Assembly: GCA_944389975.1 (NCBI GenBank)
Contig: CALXOH010000020.1
Location: 1 to 64,000, forward strand
DNA: 64,000 nt
Reading direction: 5' to 3'
Origin: an uncultured Spirochaetaceae bacterium
Lineage (GTDB): Bacteria; Spirochaetota; Spirochaetia; Sphaerochaetales; Sphaerochaetaceae
The notes below the pieces were generated by a model. That model was not told where the DNA came from and ran no database searches. It saw only the letters and a list, made by a program, of their open reading frames with translations. This document shows, piece by piece, positions 45,354 to 54,100 of this stretch (its first letter is position 1; each line of letters opens with the position of its first letter). The position numbers were made by a program, and so were the translations under genes.

Positions 45354-45893
45354 TCACCTCTTGTGCCTTCCCTTCAGGACAGTTGAGACATCGTCCAGAG
45401 AAAACCCTTTCTCCACCAGAAGCACAAGGTAGTGGTACATCAGGTCGGCAGCCTCACCCAAAAACAGTTCGGGGTTGTCGTCCTTTGCTTCTATCACGAC
45501 TTCCGTGGCCTCTTCCCCTACTTTCTGAGCGATCCTGTTGATCCCTCTGGAAAAGAGCTTATTCGTGTAAGAGCCCTCCTGCGGGTGCTCCTTTCTATCG
45601 CGGATGACAGACTCAAGGTATGAAAGAAAGCCTGTTGCATCCTCTTTCCCCGGATCGTCATCCTCCATATAGAGCGTCTTTCCGATCCCGGACGGGACTA
45701 CCTTCACAAGAACGCTTTTCCCGTCGCTTGACTCGAGAGACTCCCTGATCGAAAGCTTTCCCAGGTCCGGCACCGAAAGCGCGATCACGCCCTCTTTACG
45801 GGCATCATCAAGCTCAGCCCTCTCCATCTCGAGGACACCGACAGCCTTCAATGTAATTGCATCCTGAATCAGGACAATGACATCTTTTTCCAT
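45354..45893 (-). CDS. hisIE: HisIE: phosphoribosyl-ATP pyrophosphatase with degenerate HisI domain
   Basis: The C-terminal 90 residues are a clear HisE: 'EGSYTNKLFSRGINRIAQKVGEEATEVVIEAKDD' (in parts: GSYTNKLFSRG, KVGEEATEVVIEA) and 'GEAADLMYHYLVLL'. The N-terminal 80 residues follow the HisI fold pattern ('VIVLIQDAITLKAVGVLEM') but lack the WxKGETSG loop, the DCDxD magnesium site and the cysteines of the zinc site. The phosphoribosyl-AMP cyclohydrolase step is therefore not obviously encoded here. It is the last gene of the his operon. Confidence 0.88.
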   Translation of the reverse strand: MEKDVIVLIQDAITLKAVGVLEMERAELDDARKEGVIALSVPDLGKLSIRESLESSDGKSVLVKVVPSGIGKTLYMEDDDPGKEDATGFLSYLESVIRDRKEHPQEGSYTNKLFSRGINRIAQKVGEEATEVVIEAKDDNPELFLGEAADLMYHYLVLLVEKGFSLDDVSTVLKGRHKR

Positions 45894-45904
45894 TTTCTTT
45901 CCTC

Positions 45905-46666
45905 CTATCTGACGCTGATACCTTCATCCCGAAGGTATGATTTGAGTTCCTGTATTCCGATCTCCCCGTAGTGGAATACAGAAGCGGCAAGGGCTGCGTC
46001 TGCCATTCCCTCGGTAAACACTTTTTTGAAATCCTCTTTCTTCCCCGCGCCCCCTGATGCGATCACAGGAATCGAGAGAGACGTGGAAAGAAGCTTTGTA
46101 ATTCCATTGTCAAAGCCATCTTTGGTCCCATCCTTCTCCATCGAGGTAAGAAGGATCTCTCCTGCTCCCATCTTCTCACCTTGGAGCGCCCACGAAAGTA
46201 CATCAATGCCCGTTTTCGTCCTACCTCCGTCAACCATGACTTCATAGAGCGATGGAAGCGAAGGGTTTCTCCGCGCATCGATTGCAAGAACGACGCACTG
46301 GCTTCCGAAGCGGGATGACAAGGATGCGATCAGTTCGGGAGAACGCACGGCAGATGAGTTTATCGATATCTTGTCAGCACCTGCATCGAGTATCCTCTTC
46401 ACGTCATCCTCGGTTTTTATCCCGCCTCCGACAGTGAAAGGGATTGAAAGGACCCGGGATGCCTCCCTGACGAGGGAAACCATCGTCTTACGGGCTTCCA
46501 CCGTTGCCGTTATATCCAAAAACACAAGTTCGTCAGCACCTTCGTCTGAATAACGCGATGCCATCTCGATCACCGATCCCGCGTCGCGGAGGGATGTGAA
46601 GTTCACACCCTTCACAGTCCGTCCATCCTTCACGTCAAGACATGGGATTATACGTTTTGCAAGCAT
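45905..46666 (-). CDS. hisF: Imidazole glycerol phosphate synthase, cyclase subunit
   Basis: This 253-residue (beta-alpha)8 barrel has '[19 protein letters not shown]' with the first catalytic aspartate and '[10 protein letters not shown]' with the second. '[14 protein letters not shown]' and '[14 protein letters not shown]' are the phosphate-binding loops. With HisH it converts PRFAR to imidazole glycerol phosphate and AICAR, the latter feeding purine synthesis. The start overlaps the hisA end by 19 bases. Confidence 0.97.
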
Positions 46667-47373
46667 TCAGCCTCCTTCATCTCTTTGATCGTGATTCTCC
46701 CTTCGTAGTAAGCTTTGCCGACGATCACGCCGCCCAGTCCTGCGGCAGTAAGGTCAACAAGGTCCTTGAAAGATGAAACACCCCCTGATGCGATCAGGAA
46801 AACATCGGGAACCGATGACAATATCTTCTTGTAAAGATCCGTCGAAGGTCCTGAAAGCATTCCATCCCTTGCTATATCCGTCACTGTCGCATACCTGAGT
46901 CCCGACTCGACATACCCTTTGATGAATGGAATGCCTTCGATCCTGCTCTTTTCCCTCCATCCGGATAGCGCTACATATCCTTCGCTGAGATCTGCAGAGA
47001 GTATTATGCTTCCCGGCATCTTTCTCGCCCAAGAAAGGATATCTTCCCTCTTTTCCACGGCAAGTGAGCCGATGTTCACTTTCTTTGCGCCAGCGTTCAG
47101 GAATGAGATGTAATCATCCTCGCTCCTCACTCCTCCACCTGCATCCACTGAAAGGGATGTCGATCTGGCGATTTTCTCGATCACCCGAAGGTTGCATCCT
47201 CTTTTGAACGCCCGGTCCAGATCGACTACGTGGAGGTGCTCCAACCCCCCGTCCTCGAAAGCTTTTGCAACCTCCACGGGGTCATCCGAATAGCTCTTGA
47301 CGCTCCCGATCTCCCCTTTCTCAAGACGCACGATCTTTCCGTCTATGATGTCTATTGCAGGAAATACGATCAT
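46648..47373 (-). CDS. hisA: ProFAR isomerase
   Basis: This 241-residue barrel enzyme isomerises ProFAR to PRFAR. '[19 protein letters not shown]' has the catalytic aspartate, followed by '[10 protein letters not shown]', '[12 protein letters not shown]' and '[16 protein letters not shown]' with the second aspartate. I start at 47373, where the ATG overlaps the hisH stop by four bases; the longer frame adds 35 residues running back through hisH. Confidence 0.96.
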
Positions 47374-47957
47374 AGTTCGATGAACCTCCTCAGTATCCCG
47401 AGCCCCACGCCTGCGCTCTTTTCGGGGTGGAATTGCACTCCGTAAAAGTTTTCTTTCTCCAATGCAGATGAAAAACAAAGCCCGTCGTACCTTGTACTTG
47501 CACTCGTATTCTCCGAATAGGGCACGTAATACGAATGTACGAAGTAAACGTACTCTTCATCAGAAGTCGGAGCAAAAAGCCTTCCTGATGTGTTTTCAAG
47601 TGTGTTCCACCCGACGTGCGGGATCTTGTATCCCCTGTCCTTCGGAAAGAGCTTCACCCTCTCTGGAAATATGCCAAGGCAAGGGACATCCCCCTCCTCA
47701 GAGAACGAACACATCAGTTGCATTCCGAGGCATATCCCGAGGAACGGACGCTTGAGGGATCTTATGACATCCTTCAGCCCGGATTTCTCCAAATCAGCCA
47801 TAGCACTCGACGCCTCCCCGACTCCGGGAAAGATCACGTGGCTTGCCCTTTCTATCTCATCCTTATCTGCAGTAAGGCGGGCATCCGCTCCGATTTTGAA
47901 AAGCGCGTTCATTATCGAAGTGACGTTACCCGCGCCGTATCTTATAACAGCTATCAC
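47370..47957 (-). CDS. hisH: Imidazole glycerol phosphate synthase, glutamine amidotransferase subunit
   Basis: The 195 residues form a class I glutaminase that feeds ammonia to HisF. The nucleophile is in 'FLGICLGMQLM' (about residue 77) and the His-Glu pair is in 'GVQFHPEKS'. 'VIRYGAGNVTSIMNAL' is the HisH N-terminus. The start overlaps the hisB stop by four bases. Confidence 0.96.
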   Translation of the reverse strand: MIAVIRYGAGNVTSIMNALFKIGADARLTADKDEIERASHVIFPGVGEASSAMADLEKSGLKDVIRSLKRPFLGICLGMQLMCSFSEEGDVPCLGIFPERVKLFPKDRGYKIPHVGWNTLENTSGRLFAPTSDEEYVYFVHSYYVPYSENTSASTRYDGLCFSSALEKENFYGVQFHPEKSAGVGLGILRRFIEL

Positions 47958-49096
47958 AATACCCCCTTTGTGCTTTGCACCCTGTCATCCCCGGGGATTC
48001 TCTTCACTGCCTTTCTCATGGCACGTGCAAATGCCTTGAAAAGAGCCTCGGCTGTGTGGTGGCTGTCACCACCCTTTCTTGCGCTCAAGTAAAGATTGCA
48101 CCTGGCGGCAGATGAGAACGATCGGAAGAAATGTCTCACGAGCTCGGTCGGGAAAGACCCGATGTACGGGAATGTGAACTCCACGTCGAATATGAACTCG
48201 GGACGGGAAGAGAAATCTATGGCGCAAGTTGCAACGGTGTCATCCATCATCAGCACTTCAAAGCCGTATCGCTCGATCCCTCTTTTATCCCCCAGCGCAG
48301 TAAGAACTGCACTACCCAATGCGAGCGCAACATCCTCGACAGTGTGATGGAAATCCACATCCAGATCCCCTTTCACCTCACCTTTTGCATCAAAGCGGGA
48401 ATGCCTTACAACTTGGTCAAGCATATGGTCGAAGAACGGGATTTTCGTCTCGATCCGCCCTTCCCCCGTGCCGTCGATGTCGATTGACAAGCTTATTTCG
48501 GTCTCCTTCGTGTTCCTATTTATCTCAGCACACCTATGCTTCATGCTCTCATCCGAGAGAAGGTATGATGCGATATCGAGCCACGAAGAGGTACGCAGCA
48601 CTATCGTATCCTCAAGATCCTTTGGAACCTCCCCCTCAGGCCCGTTCAAAAGGAAACCGCGGCAGTTCATGTTCCTTGCAAGTTCCATGTCGGTGAACCT
48701 GTCCCCGATTACGAATGACTTCGACATGTCGTACTCATCCGAGCGATAGCCGTCTATCATCCCTGTGGATGGTTTTCGCATCGGAGAGTTGTCCTCGGGA
48801 AGGGAGAAATCTATGTTCACGTCATCAAATATGATTCCCTCGCCGCCGAGTGTTTCGAAGATCCTCGTTGCAGGCCCTATGTAATCTTCGTACGGGAATG
48901 CGGGGGTACCCACCCCGTCCTGGTTTGATACCATCACAAACAGGTAATCGCTTCTTCTCCTTATCTCTCGCAGAGCCTCGAATACATGCGGTATGTACTC
49001 GATCTTCTCAAAACTGTCCACCTGGGTCTCCTTGACGATCACACCATCACGATCGATGAACAAAACTTTCTTCCTCTCAGTAATCTTTCCACTCAC
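47954..49096 (-). CDS. hisB: Bifunctional histidinol phosphatase / IGP dehydratase
   Basis: The 380 residues comprise an N-terminal HAD phosphatase ('LFIDRDGVIV', 'VSNQDGVGTPAF', 'SFVIGDRFTD') and a C-terminal dehydratase with its two histidine motifs, 'FHHTVEDVALALG' and 'SHHTAEALFKAF'. The HAD domain lacks the zinc-binding Cys/His loop of the enterobacterial enzyme; the equivalent 'FSLPEDNSPMRKPSTGM' resembles the version I associate with Bacteroidota HisB. The start overlaps the hisC end by 20 bases. Confidence 0.95.
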   Translation of the reverse strand: MSGKITERKKVLFIDRDGVIVKETQVDSFEKIEYIPHVFEALREIRRRSDYLFVMVSNQDGVGTPAFPYEDYIGPATRIFETLGGEGIIFDDVNIDFSLPEDNSPMRKPSTGMIDGYRSDEYDMSKSFVIGDRFTDMELARNMNCRGFLLNGPEGEVPKDLEDTIVLRTSSWLDIASYLLSDESMKHRCAEINRNTKETEISLSIDIDGTGEGRIETKIPFFDHMLDQVVRHSRFDAKGEVKGDLDVDFHHTVEDVALALGSAVLTALGDKRGIERYGFEVLMMDDTVATCAIDFSSRPEFIFDVEFTFPYIGSFPTELVRHFFRSFSSAARCNLYLSARKGGDSHHTAEALFKAFARAMRKAVKRIPGDDRVQSTKGVL

Positions 49097-50123
49097 AAAG
49101 CGCCTCCTTGAGCCTATCCATCTCAGATTCAGAACCGATCGTTATCCTGAGCGTATTCTCCAAAAGAGGCTCTGATGACCTGTTCCTGACTACTATACCT
49201 TTTGAAAGGAGATATTCATAAAGCGCTGATGCATCAAGAGTACGCACGAGTACGAAATTCGCACTTGACGGGAACACCTTTCTGACATACGGAAGCTTGG
49301 AGAGAAAAGACGAAAGGTCTTTCCTTCTTTCCCGCACCTCCCCGATCCTCTTATCGACACTCTTTTTCCCGTCGAGTGCCTTCATACCTGCAAGAAGCGA
49401 AGGATAAGAGACGTTGTAAGGTGGTTTGACCTTTGAAAAGACTTTCTGGATCTCCCCGGATGCGATCAAAATGCCGAGGCGCGCACCTGCAGCTCCATAT
49501 GCCTTTGAAAACGTACGGAGAACGCATACCCGCGGGTTTCCAGCGATCAAAGAGAATGCGCTCTCGAAATCCTCTGCAAAATCCGCGTACGCTTCATCCA
49601 CGACGGTAATCCCTTCGTTTTCGTCCGCTATTTTCTTAACTTCTGAAAGCGGATAGACCCGCCCCGTCGGATTGTTCGGGGAACATATGAATACGATCTT
49701 CGGCTTTTCCTTCTTGACCATGTCGATCACACTTTCGACATCCAAATCCAAAGAAGGAAGCAAAGGAACGTCCACAACGCCCACACCGGAAGTATTTGCA
49801 AAGACCGAATAAGTACCGTAAGTCGGACGCTCGATCATGATCTTGTCCTTTTCAGGGCGGCAGAAGATCCTGATCAGAATGTCAATGATCTCGTCAGAGC
49901 CGTTCCCGATTCCCGTCATCTGATATGGAAAGCCCATCACTTCCTCGATTTTCCGCCTCAGAAGGGACGCGGAAGGATCGGGGTATCTGTTCACACCCTC
50001 GTCAAAGCCCTCCCAGCTCTCATTCGCATCAAGGAACACATCCGCATTTCCAGAGAACTCATTCCTTGCGGAGCTGTACGGTACGAGGTTCCTGATCCAT
50101 GGGTTCATAAGTTCTTCAATCAT
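49077..50123 (-). CDS. hisC: Histidinol-phosphate aminotransferase
   Basis: This 348-residue PLP class I/II aminotransferase has 'IGNGSDEIIDILIR', 'SPNNPTGRVYPL', 'VDEAYADFAEDF' and the PLP lysine in 'RTFSKAYGAAGARLG'. It transfers the amino group from glutamate to imidazole acetol phosphate. The ATG overlaps the hisD stop by four bases. Confidence 0.96.
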   Translation of the reverse strand: MIEELMNPWIRNLVPYSSARNEFSGNADVFLDANESWEGFDEGVNRYPDPSASLLRRKIEEVMGFPYQMTGIGNGSDEIIDILIRIFCRPEKDKIMIERPTYGTYSVFANTSGVGVVDVPLLPSLDLDVESVIDMVKKEKPKIVFICSPNNPTGRVYPLSEVKKIADENEGITVVDEAYADFAEDFESAFSLIAGNPRVCVLRTFSKAYGAAGARLGILIASGEIQKVFSKVKPPYNVSYPSLLAGMKALDGKKSVDKRIGEVRERRKDLSSFLSKLPYVRKVFPSSANFVLVRTLDASALYEYLLSKGIVVRNRSSEPLLENTLRITIGSESEMDRLKEALCEWKDY

Positions 50124-51406
50124 TTTCCAACCCTCACCGAAACTGCATACGCATGCGCATCAAGCCCCTCTTTACGTGCCATCGTGGTTATCGTATCCGA
50201 AAGGCTTTCAAGACCGGCTTTTGTGATCTTCTGCACAGTCATCTTCTTTATAAACGAATCCAGGGAAACACCCGCTGAGGAACGTGCCCATCCGGATGTG
50301 GGAAGGGTATGGTTCGTGCCCGATGCATAATCCCCGGCGGACTCCGGAGTGTAACGTCCGAGGAACACGGAACCTGCGTTCTCAACCTTTTCAAGTACCG
50401 TTTCGGGGTCCTTCGTGGAGATTATGAGGTGCTCCGGAGCATATTCGTTTATGATGTGAGCCATCTCTTCCTCGGAAGAGACGAAGAACGCATGGGAGTG
50501 TGAAAGCGACGGAAGGATATACTCGTGCCTGCCGATCCTCCCCAGCTCCTCTTCGATTGCACTCTCGACTTCAGCGTGTATCGCTTCCGCTTTCCTCTTG
50601 TCTTCCGCCATTATCAAGAGGATCACCTGGCTGTCTTTCCCGTGCTCCGCCTGGGACAAGAGGTCGGCTGCCGCAAAGGATACATCGGAGGTGGAGTCGA
50701 TCGCAACCAATACCTCCGAAGGCCCTGCAAGCATGTCGATTGCACATGTCGTGGAGACAAGCTTCTTCGCTTCAGTCACGAACCTGTTCCCCGGTCCGAA
50801 TATCTTGTCGCACTTCGGAACGCTTCTTGTACCGTACGCAAGGGCTGCTATCGCATGTGCGCCCCCGGCTTTCAATACTTTCGTCACCCCTGAAATCTTT
50901 GCTGCGTACAAAATCTCAGGCGCGACCTTCCCGCCCTTTGCGGGAGTGGCGAGTATTATCTCCCTGCACCCCGCGATCGAAGCGGGGATTGCAAGCATCA
51001 GCACCGTCGAAAAGAGTGGCGCGCTTCCCCCGGGAACGTATAGGCCGACTTTGTTTATGGGAACGTTTTTCCTCCAGCAGACAACCCCTTCCGTTACCTC
51101 TACCTTTCCTTCGTCGATCATCTGGGCCGAGTGGAAACGCGTTATATTTTCCTTCGCCTCCCCAAGTGCACGCTTCAACTCTGGAGAGACAAGCTTCGAA
51201 GCCTCTTCGAACTCCTCTTCCGTGGCATATAGCGACTCCAGATCGCTTCCATCGAAAACACGGGCATATTCCTTTACCGCATCATCCCCACACTCTCTGA
51301 CAGCGGAAAGTATTTCGCTTACCCGTAAGGAGAGTGATGCATCCTCATCCATCGGGCGAGTCAGGTATTTCACATCAAAATCATCAAGTCTTATATACAT
51401 TCTCAC
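50120..51406 (-). CDS. hisD: Histidinol dehydrogenase
   Basis: The 428-residue enzyme performs the last two oxidations of histidine synthesis. 'VGLYVPGGSAPLFSTVLM', 'DMLAGPSEVLVAID', 'LLSQAEHGKDSQ' and 'NHTLPTSGWARSSAGVSLDSF' are the expected NAD, metal and substrate motifs, with the two catalytic histidines in the late 'EHL...' and 'NHTLPT' regions. The start overlaps hisG by four bases. Confidence 0.97.
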   Translation of the reverse strand: MRMYIRLDDFDVKYLTRPMDEDASLSLRVSEILSAVRECGDDAVKEYARVFDGSDLESLYATEEEFEEASKLVSPELKRALGEAKENITRFHSAQMIDEGKVEVTEGVVCWRKNVPINKVGLYVPGGSAPLFSTVLMLAIPASIAGCREIILATPAKGGKVAPEILYAAKISGVTKVLKAGGAHAIAALAYGTRSVPKCDKIFGPGNRFVTEAKKLVSTTCAIDMLAGPSEVLVAIDSTSDVSFAAADLLSQAEHGKDSQVILLIMAEDKRKAEAIHAEVESAIEEELGRIGRHEYILPSLSHSHAFFVSSEEEMAHIINEYAPEHLIISTKDPETVLEKVENAGSVFLGRYTPESAGDYASGTNHTLPTSGWARSSAGVSLDSFIKKMTVQKITKAGLESLSDTITTMARKEGLDAHAYAVSVRVGK

Positions 51407-52263
51407 TCCGTCATCTTTTCGATGTTCATCACCAGGATTCCCTCGGCTCCGAGTGCCTTCAACTTTTCAAATACGCCCCAGAACCTCTCTTCGTCGACCA
51501 CAGTCTGCACTGATACCCACGAAGAATCCAGAAGCGGGGTTACAGTCGGACTCTTCATGCTTCCGATGATCGAAGAGACTTCGGACAGCTTCTCCTTCGG
51601 AAGGTTGAAAAGTATGTATTTCTTCTTACGGGCAAGCATGACCGCATCGATCCTTTCCAAAAGCCTTCCAAGGATCTTCCTCTTTTCCCCAGGCATGTTC
51701 TTTGATGCGACCATCACTGCAGATGAGGAGTATATGCACTCGGCTTCCTCCAGCCCGTTCATCTTCAGCGTAGTACCCGTGGATACCAGATCTGCAATCG
51801 CATCGGCAATCCCTACATCGACAGTTATCTCAACCGATCCGGATACGACTACAAGCTCGGCGTTCACCCCGCGCTCCGAGAGTATCTTTGAAAGTATGTT
51901 CGGATAGGAAGTTGCAATCCTTTTCCCTTCAAGCGACTCAAGCCCCTTGTACTCGAAGCCTTTTGGGACTGCAATCGAAAGGCGGCACGATGCGAACTTC
52001 AGATTCCTGACCACGTCAAGCTCGATCTGACTCTCATCAAGTTCGTTCCTTCCCACGATCCCGATGTCGGCAACCCCGTCGTACACGTACTGGGGTATGT
52101 CGTCATCCCTGACGAAAAGGAAATCCAAGGGAAATGACGGTGAGGATGCTTTCAACACCCTCGAATCCTGATAGAAGTCGATTCCACAGGATCTGATCAT
52201 CTCAAGGCTCTTCTCCGAAAGCCTTCCGCTCTTCTGGACGGCAATGCCGAGACGGTTTTCCAT
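51403..52263 (-). CDS. hisG: ATP phosphoribosyltransferase, long form
   Basis: This first committed enzyme of histidine synthesis has 286 residues. It has 'LGIAVQKSGRLSEKS' at the N-terminus, 'DIGIVGRNELDE', and the PRPP loop around 'DLVSTGTTLKMNGL'. The final 80 residues form the HisG_C regulatory domain that binds histidine, so no HisZ is needed. AGGAGGAG precedes the ATG by six bases. It lies immediately behind the attenuator terminator. Confidence 0.96.
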   Translation of the reverse strand: MENRLGIAVQKSGRLSEKSLEMIRSCGIDFYQDSRVLKASSPSFPLDFLFVRDDDIPQYVYDGVADIGIVGRNELDESQIELDVVRNLKFASCRLSIAVPKGFEYKGLESLEGKRIATSYPNILSKILSERGVNAELVVVSGSVEITVDVGIADAIADLVSTGTTLKMNGLEEAECIYSSSAVMVASKNMPGEKRKILGRLLERIDAVMLARKKKYILFNLPKEKLSEVSSIIGSMKSPTVTPLLDSSWVSVQTVVDEERFWGVFEKLKALGAEGILVMNIEKMTE

Positions 52264-52286
52264 ACTCTCCTCCTGAGCTTGGGTTA

Positions 52287-52316
52287 TAAAAAAAGACCTC
52301 CGCCAATCGGAGGCCC
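52287..52316 (-). terminator. his attenuator terminator
   Basis: On the minus strand GCCTCCG-ATTGG-CGGAGGT forms a stem of six GC-rich pairs plus a G-U pair, followed immediately by seven Ts. It lies between the leader peptide and hisG, 24 bases before the hisG ATG, and is a canonical intrinsic terminator. A second hairpin upstream, ATCATG-ATAAGC-CATGAT (52336-52352), lies just past the His codons and overlaps the leader stop; its 3' arm can alternatively pair with the His codon run. Confidence 0.85.
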
Positions 52317-52345
52317 AATATCAATAAAGAACCCATCATGGCTTA

Positions 52346-52390
52346 TCATGATTCAGATAGGCAATGATGATGTCCGTTCATTCTTTCCAT
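52346..52390 (-). CDS. hisL: his leader peptide
   Basis: A 14-codon frame between the his promoter and the attenuator encodes MERMNGHHHCLSES with three consecutive histidine codons (CAT CAT CAT). Its stop lies within the first hairpin. This is the arrangement of classical his attenuation: ribosome stalling at His codons when charged tRNA-His is scarce would favour read-through. The ATG is six bases after the TAATGT -10, so the leader would be read from an almost leaderless transcript end. An internal ATG (52381) is an alternative start. Confidence 0.8.
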   Translation of the reverse strand: MERMNGHHHCLSES

Positions 52391-52396
52391 ATGCCA

Positions 52397-52454
52397 ACAT
52401 TAACGCAAGAGGTATGCAAAGTCAATTGTTTCAAATCCCCTTATCTGATAATGT
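52397..52454. promoter_or_regulatory. Mirror-image divergent promoters, his operon / ACT-UPF0210
   Basis: Minus strand: TTGACT (52420-52425), 17-base spacer, TAATGT (52397-52402), then six bases, then the leader ATG. Plus strand: TTGTTT (52426-52431), 17-base spacer, TAATGT (52449-52454), then six bases, then the ACT gene ATG. The -35 boxes abut without overlap, and the spacers, the -10 sequence and the distance to ATG are identical on both sides. Both transcripts are predicted to begin at or next to the start codon. Confidence 0.8.
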
Positions 52455-52460
52455 CAGTTT

Positions 52461-52733
52461 ATGCATAAGTCAATAATCACCGTAGTAGGCAAAGACCAGG
52501 TCGGAATAATAGCGAAGGTATGCACGTACCTTGCAGAGAACGACATCAACATCCTCGACATATCCCAGACGATAGTCGGAGGGTACTTCAACATGATGAT
52601 GATCGCAGACACGAACGGTTCAAAGAAAGAGTATGCGAAACTCTCCAAGGAACTGGAGGAACTGGGACGGGGAATCGGCGTAGTGATCAAGCTCCAAAGG
52701 GAAGAGATCTTCCAGTCAATGCAAAGGATCTGA
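52461..52733 (+). CDS. ACT domain protein (UPF0237 family)
   Basis: This 90-residue single ACT domain, '[33 protein letters not shown]' (first half shown as [16 protein letters not shown] and [14 protein letters not shown]), is GcvR-like. ACT domains bind amino acids and regulate enzymes; this family almost always sits directly before a UPF0210 gene, as here (two-base gap). There is no Shine-Dalgarno; the ATG is six bases past the -10. Divergence from the his operon suggests, without proving, a link to amino-acid status. Confidence 0.9.
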
Positions 52734-52735
52734 AT

Positions 52736-54100
52736 ATGATAAGCATCGGAGAAGTTATAGAGACCAACAGCATGATCGAGAAGGAGAACCTCGATGTGCG
52801 GACGATCACTCTCGGCATCAGCCTCCTCGATTCGATCTCTGACGATCTTGAAAAAACGTGCCGGAACATCTACCAGAAGATCACGAAGACTGCGGAGAAC
52901 CTGATCAAAATCGGAGAAGAGATCGAAACGGAATACGCAATCCCCATAATCAACAAACGTATCTCAGTAACCCCGATAGCAATAGTCGCAAGCCCGTCAG
53001 CCCGCTCGATCGATGACTATGTAAAGATTGCAAAGACACTTGACGATGCCGCAAAAGCGGTGGGAGTGAACTTCCTCGGGGGTTTCAGCGCACTGCCCGC
53101 GAAAGGGACTACGAGAAGCGAAAAACTCTTGATGGAATCGCTTCCATACGCGCTCTCCGAAAGCGACAACGTATGCGCATCGATAAACCTCGCATCAACA
53201 AAAACCGGGATAAACATGGATGCAGTCGCCCTGATGGGAAAGATCATAAAGGAGACGGCATACCAGACGAGGGACAAGGAGAGCATAGGATGTGCAAAGC
53301 TTGTCGTGTTTGCAAACGCACCCGATGACAACCCGTTCATGGCCGGTGCATTCCACGGGGTTACGGAAGCAGACAGCGTGATCAACGTAGGGGTAAGCGG
53401 CCCCGGAGTCATCAAGAAAGCGCTTGAAAGCGCACGAGACGCGGACTTCCGAACCCTTTGTGAAGTGATAAAAAAGACTGCATTCAAGATCACTAGAGTC
53501 GGACAACTTGTGGCACGTGAGGCATCCGAGAAGCTCGGTATACCATTCGGTATCGTCGACCTCTCCCTTGCCCCCACTCCCGCGATAGGCGACAGCATTG
53601 CAGAGATAGTGGAGGAGATGGGACTGGAAAAGGTTGGCGCCCCTGGCACGACGTGCGCAATCGCACTTTTGAACGACAACGTCAAGAAAGGCGGCATAAT
53701 GGCATCTTCCTCGGTTGGCGGATTAAGCGGCGCATTCATACCGGTCAGTGAAGACCACGGGATGATTGATGCAGTCGAGAAAGGCGCGCTATCGATCGAA
53801 AAACTTGAAGCGATGACATCGGTGTGCTCCGTCGGACTCGATATGATCGCAATTCCGGGTGACACAAGTGCCGAGACGATATCCGGGATAATTGCAGACG
53901 AGATGGCCATAGGGGTCGTAAATCAGAAGACGACTGCGGCAAGACTCATTCCCGCATATGGAAAGAAGGAAGGGGAAAGCGTCGAATTCGGAGGACTATT
54001 GGGAAGCGCTCCTGTGATGAGCGTAAGCAAGTACTCCTCATCAGCATTCATCAACCGCGGGGGAAGAATCCCCGCGCCTATCCACAGTTTCAAGAATTGA
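52736..54100 (+). CDS. UPF0210 (DUF711, PFL-like) family protein
   Basis: The 454-residue protein belongs to the DUF711/UPF0210 group related in fold to pyruvate formate-lyase but lacking its radical machinery as far as I know. '[12 protein letters not shown]', '[15 protein letters not shown]', '[11 protein letters not shown]' and '[13 protein letters not shown]' are typical. I start at 52736, two bases after the ACT stop; the longer frame runs through the ACT gene. Function is unknown; it is probably regulated by the ACT partner. Confidence 0.9.

Follow-up and report, generated by a model that had tools for sequence, protein, structure and literature searches.

The window is a 64,000-nucleotide stretch of DNA (contig CALXOH010000020.1, positions 1 to 64,000) from an uncultured gut Spirochaetaceae bacterium with a genome of 1.95 Mb. 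Its minus strand carries a his operon of eight compact genes at 52263-45354, in the order hisG-hisD-hisC-hisNB-hisH-hisA-hisF-hisIE, with hisG first; the gene names other than hisG were assigned from the translations. The nearest relatives of the HisG protein are found in uncultured Spirochaetaceae/Spirochaetales MAGs. A gap of 197 bp separates hisG from a divergent ACT-domain gene (52461-52733), which is followed by a second gene (52737-54100) that resembles the DUF711/UPF0210 family. The preliminary description had placed a his promoter, a 14-codon frame with three consecutive His codons and a terminator with seven T before hisG, and all of these elements were located on the minus strand:

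52420-52425, minus strand: -35 element TTGACT, of which TTGAC is conserved among the relatives' loci
52397-52402, minus strand: -10 element TAATGT (TAnnnT in most relatives), ending 6 nt upstream of the leader ATG
52346-52390, minus strand: leader peptide frame MERMNGHHHCLSES, 14 codons from ATG 52390 to TGA 52346, a conserved frame
52356-52382, minus strand: region 1, which holds the His codons and is the 5' side of the 1:2 stem (folding, half-swap test)
52323-52347, minus strand: region 2, with core GCCATGATGGGTTC at 52342-52329, partner of region 1 or region 3 (folding, half-swap tests)
52302-52316, minus strand: region 3, the terminator 5' arm and loop, antiterminator partner of region 2 (pairing energy)
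52288-52316, minus strand: intrinsic terminator 3:4, stem 52316-52294 and seven T at 52294-52288 (folding, compensatory changes)
52264-52274, minus strand: hisG Shine-Dalgarno sequence AGGAGGA (AGGAGG before ATG 52263)
51403-52263, minus strand: hisG, long form, 286 aa (PF01634, E 1.7e-50)
45354-51406, minus strand: hisD, hisC, the hisNB fusion, hisH, hisA, hisF and hisIE (translations)

The spacer between TTGACT and TAATGT is 17 nt, the His codons CAT CAT CAT lie at 52372-52364, and the leader ATG is 127 nt from hisG. The neighboring gene points away from the operon, starting at 52461; no upstream gene can therefore use the terminator, and the his promoter is the sole source of RNA reaching it.

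Orthologous leaders were retrieved from upstream DNA anchored on hisG, because a covariance model built on close relatives (R1) proved too sequence-specific as a measure of spread (15 of 393 genomes of the phylum). Leader starts were set by promoter spacing; taking the most upstream ATG was rejected, as it gave over-long peptides. The absence of a His codon run from orthologous leaders would have spoken against an attenuator, as the preliminary description had pointed out. The run was, however, present upstream of hisG in 39 of the 41 congeners with the long form of the gene (window included), in each of the 18 other family members with this form, and in five genomes of the same class whose HisG is 53-63% identical. 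These amount to 62 spirochaete loci, including 23 of 23 non-congeners at a HisG identity of at least 53%. The run comprises 2 to 6 codons in the relatives and sometimes reads HxHH. No His leader was found at distant HisG loci (L134 at 45% identity; L170-L177 at 32-36%, where hisG lies behind another gene) or before short-form hisG (L135-L140). It was also absent from the congeners L107 and L109, where hisG lies behind two related membrane-protein genes that resemble the HdeD/DUF308 type; in these two genomes the leader is lost. L107 and L109 share the sequence CTAGAGATTAGAATCCT ahead of the hisG start. Elsewhere in the genome, a covariance search gave no significant further copy of this element (next E 3.05).

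Folding showed that regions 1 and 2, the latter being the post-stop segment with core GCCATGATGGG, pair over ~22 bp in the window. This stem (52382-52323) is the main first hairpin, and the small hairpin at the stop codon that had been described earlier exists as a minor alternative to it. RNAalifold on a MAFFT alignment captured only the core of the 1:2 stem, and half-swapping tests were therefore added. Native 1:2 halves paired at -18.4 kcal/mol, compared with -14.3 kcal/mol when halves were swapped between species, and the terminator arms 3:4 at -14.6 compared with -9.6 kcal/mol; none of 5000 permutations reached the native value in either case. Among 25 close relatives, 8 of 14 pairs had changed on both sides, a count reached by none of 500 shuffles and by none of the slid registers, which all scored lower; the relatedness of the sequences inflates such shuffle tests. 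The covariation signal lies mostly in the terminator because the His-codon core hardly varies. The analysis of relatives' leaders that had been proposed as a check thus yielded compensatory changes that back both the 1:2 and the 3:4 pairing.

Region 2 has a second partner. Its pairing with region 3 was calculated at -13.4 kcal/mol, compared with -8.1 ± 2.5 kcal/mol for shuffled region 2, and the 2:3 comparison likewise gave -14.7 versus -8.9 for shuffled sequence. The region 2 core is almost invariant among close relatives, and exchanging the 2:3 halves had no effect among them because both regions are nearly invariant. Across clades, native 2:3 pairings did beat swapped ones (0 of 5000 permutations), and the two sides had changed together, for example as GCCATGATGGG/CCTCCCATTTGGC, CCAGACGAGGTGG/CGTCCTTTCTGG and GAAGTGCGA/CCGCATTTC. 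A region 2 with two partners is a hallmark of attenuators.

Ribosome positions were then simulated on RNA whose terminator 3' arm was still incomplete, stalling being represented by a ribosome that holds the first or the last His codon in its A site and masks 12 nt ahead; the footprint lengths are assumptions. Under these settings, the mean number of region 3 nucleotides paired upstream was 12.5 with a stalled ribosome, 7.4 with a ribosome at the stop codon and 4.7 with no ribosome. In 42 of 48 leaders, the stalled state surpassed the ribosome-free state by 3 nt or more; it surpassed the state with a ribosome at the stop codon in 35 of 48, although the latter contrast was below 3 nt in 13 of 48. 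The window leader gave 9.1 nt (first His codon), 6.5 nt (last His codon), 5.8 nt (at the stop) and 0.4 nt (no ribosome), and its gap between stalling and stop was modest. With a median of 2 nt between the stop codon and region 2, a terminating ribosome would cover region 2. When a ribosome occupied the His codons, folding favored 2:3, while folding without a ribosome favored 1:2 together with the terminator. In these computations, the antiterminator was exclusive of the terminator and was freed by stalling at the His codons.

With a probability of about 0.93, we consider the leader to be a classical ribosome-mediated attenuator (1:2 / 2:3 / 3:4) of his operon transcription. The anatomy, the conservation of the His runs, the covariation of 1:2 and 3:4, the cross-clade co-changes in 2:3 and the alternative-fold energetics bear on this reading directly, and they uphold the earlier proposal of a classical-style his attenuator. 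We infer the transcription start, the translation of the leader, the stalling and the response of readthrough to histidine supply. RNA polymerase would start at, or adjoining, the first base of the leader ATG, and translation would initiate on the 5'-terminal AUG without a Shine-Dalgarno sequence. When charged His-tRNA is scarce, the ribosome would stall on CAT CAT CAT and cover region 1, so that region 2 (GCCATGATGGG) would pair with region 3, the terminator would be blocked and the eight his genes would be transcribed. With ample charged His-tRNA, the ribosome would reach the stop codon beside region 2 and cover or release this region; with region 2 masked or paired with region 1, the terminator would form and transcription would end after ~100 nt.

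The start of the transcript is the part of this scheme for which an alternative deserves the most weight. The leader had been suspected to begin almost at the 5' end of the RNA, and a near-zero 5' UTR, though unproven, is supported by promoter spacing and by little Shine-Dalgarno pairing. In 56 of 62 loci, the leader ATG follows the first T of TTGAC at a distance of 35-37 nt, which for a sigma-70 type promoter places the A of the ATG at about +1; by chance, TTGAC would be expected at three specified positions ahead of an ATG at a rate of 0.0024. The 20 nt upstream of the leader ATG paired with the anti-Shine-Dalgarno sequence at an average of -1.7 kcal/mol, with 6 of 56 loci at -4 or better, as opposed to -10.3 kcal/mol and 56 of 56 before hisG. 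The leader frame thus probably begins at +1. The same promoter-ATG layout was matched nine times in this genome, compared with 0 times for a reversed-pattern control, and some of the matches precede long genes, which suggests that the genome makes use of leaderless genes. Four genes outside the his operon of this genome (L180, L181, L182 and L185) show the arrangement TTGAC-N18/19-TAnnnT-N6-ATG and are candidates for leaderless mRNAs.

The attenuator could also be real but not leaderless, with another promoter starting transcription further upstream and the leader being translated without a Shine-Dalgarno sequence or by some other route. The -10 boxes are indeed far from consensus, that of the window being weak, and six loci deviate from the common spacing. 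Four of them (L121, L159, L160 and L163) have a longer TTGAC-ATG distance, hence a longer 5' UTR, together with a clear AGGAG/AAGGAG; the remaining two, L169 (40 nt) and L133 (61 nt), have no such motif. However, the constant spacing in the other 56 loci, the presence of a Shine-Dalgarno sequence at loci with clearly longer spacing (4 of the 6 exceptions) and the leaderless layout shared by other genes in the genome make an upstream start rather unlikely. L121, L159, L160 and L163, which belong to one family lineage, appear from their sequences to be a switch between leaderless and led initiation on the same His leader. We favor, as likely, a family-wide his attenuator whose sensor peptide would be initiated on a 5'-terminal AUG, with some lineages being Shine-Dalgarno-led and the regulatory logic unchanged.

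Control of the leader RNA by a T-box, a histidine-binding riboswitch or a protein, with the His frame incidental, would have precedent in Firmicutes, where T-boxes and the HisR repressor govern his genes (PMC9413887). The window leader, however, matched no Rfam family at gathering score, and a T-box covariance-model match was likewise absent; at a relaxed threshold only chance-level matches appeared. The leader is only 127 nt long and its pairing part in 1:2 is the His codons themselves, which makes such a regulator very improbable. A chance His-rich frame and terminator before hisG without regulatory link, or a plain constitutive partial terminator, can be dismissed: short HHH frames do arise by chance (although MERMNGHHHCLSES is the only HHH-containing frame of 8-25 codons on the window's minus strand, one other locus lies on the plus strand), but 62 orthologous leaders, compensatory changes and fixed promoter spacing refute this explanation in practice.

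The his leader peptide of Escherichia coli contains seven His codons. His attenuators are known in Proteobacteria (RF00514, His_leader), and the enterobacterial leader shares with the attenuator described here the His run in a short peptide, the alternative 1:2 / 2:3 / 3:4 pairings and the T-rich terminator before hisG. It differs from the present leader, which has 3 His codons (2-6 in relatives), a transcript of ~100 nt, no Shine-Dalgarno sequence and an AUG predicted at ~+1. RF00514 did not match the leader even at E up to 10. The leader belongs to a known functional class, the his attenuators, but lies outside the RF00514 sequence family. Candidate his attenuators of Firmicutes have been described in the Bacillus cereus group, Peptostreptococcaceae and Erysipelotrichales (PMC9413887); they also have three to five consecutive His codons, and the predictions include an attenuator, an antiterminator and a terminator upstream of the his genes, but they belong to another phylum, and a leaderless start is not among the features described in the accessible part of that report. 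A hisS/hisZ leader has been predicted in bacilli (PMC2965389). The leaderless trpL attenuator of Sinorhizobium meliloti (PMC7298713) resembles the present leader in that its terminated RNA starts with the ATG of a 14-codon leader peptide, although it senses Trp rather than His and belongs to Alphaproteobacteria. Leaderless attenuator peptides without 5' UTR also precede amino-acid genes in Streptomyces lividans (LeuL, TrpL, IlvL and others; PMC8079986), but this set contains no his leader.

The window HisG is 50-54% identical to HisG of Bacteroidota but shares only ~27-36% identity with the HisG of most other spirochaetes; in five congeners, the HisG is of the short form. It is possible that the his operon moved together with its leader by gene transfer. 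A structured 5' element without Rfam match has been reported before hisG in Flavobacterium (PMC9723704), and a His-rich short frame precedes hisG in 58 of 66 Bacteroidota loci (L016-L081). These leaders share the His-rich frame with the window leader, but their promoters are of the Bacteroidota type and their leader sequences are unrelated. The leader ATG of several Chitinophagaceae-type loci lies only 7-8 nt past a TAnnTTTG box, which suggests that these his leaders are leaderless too. The impression that no his attenuator had been described for the lineage was borne out, as we found no published one in spirochaetes in the literature searched; the 2010 attenuation survey (PubMed 20198868) may still hold a prediction.

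The spirochaete leader extends ribosome-mediated his attenuation to this phylum, with Bacteroidota loci carrying His leaders too, and represents an RNA family absent from Rfam. The switch is open to testing, since its conservation extends to many species, cultured Sphaerochaeta probably among them. The arrangement points to leaderless initiation as a means of fast, tight coupling in such switches. If the sensor peptide is indeed initiated on a 5'-terminal AUG, the leaderless and Shine-Dalgarno-led lineages would allow a comparison, set up by nature, of the ways in which leaderless initiation serves transcription-translation coupling.
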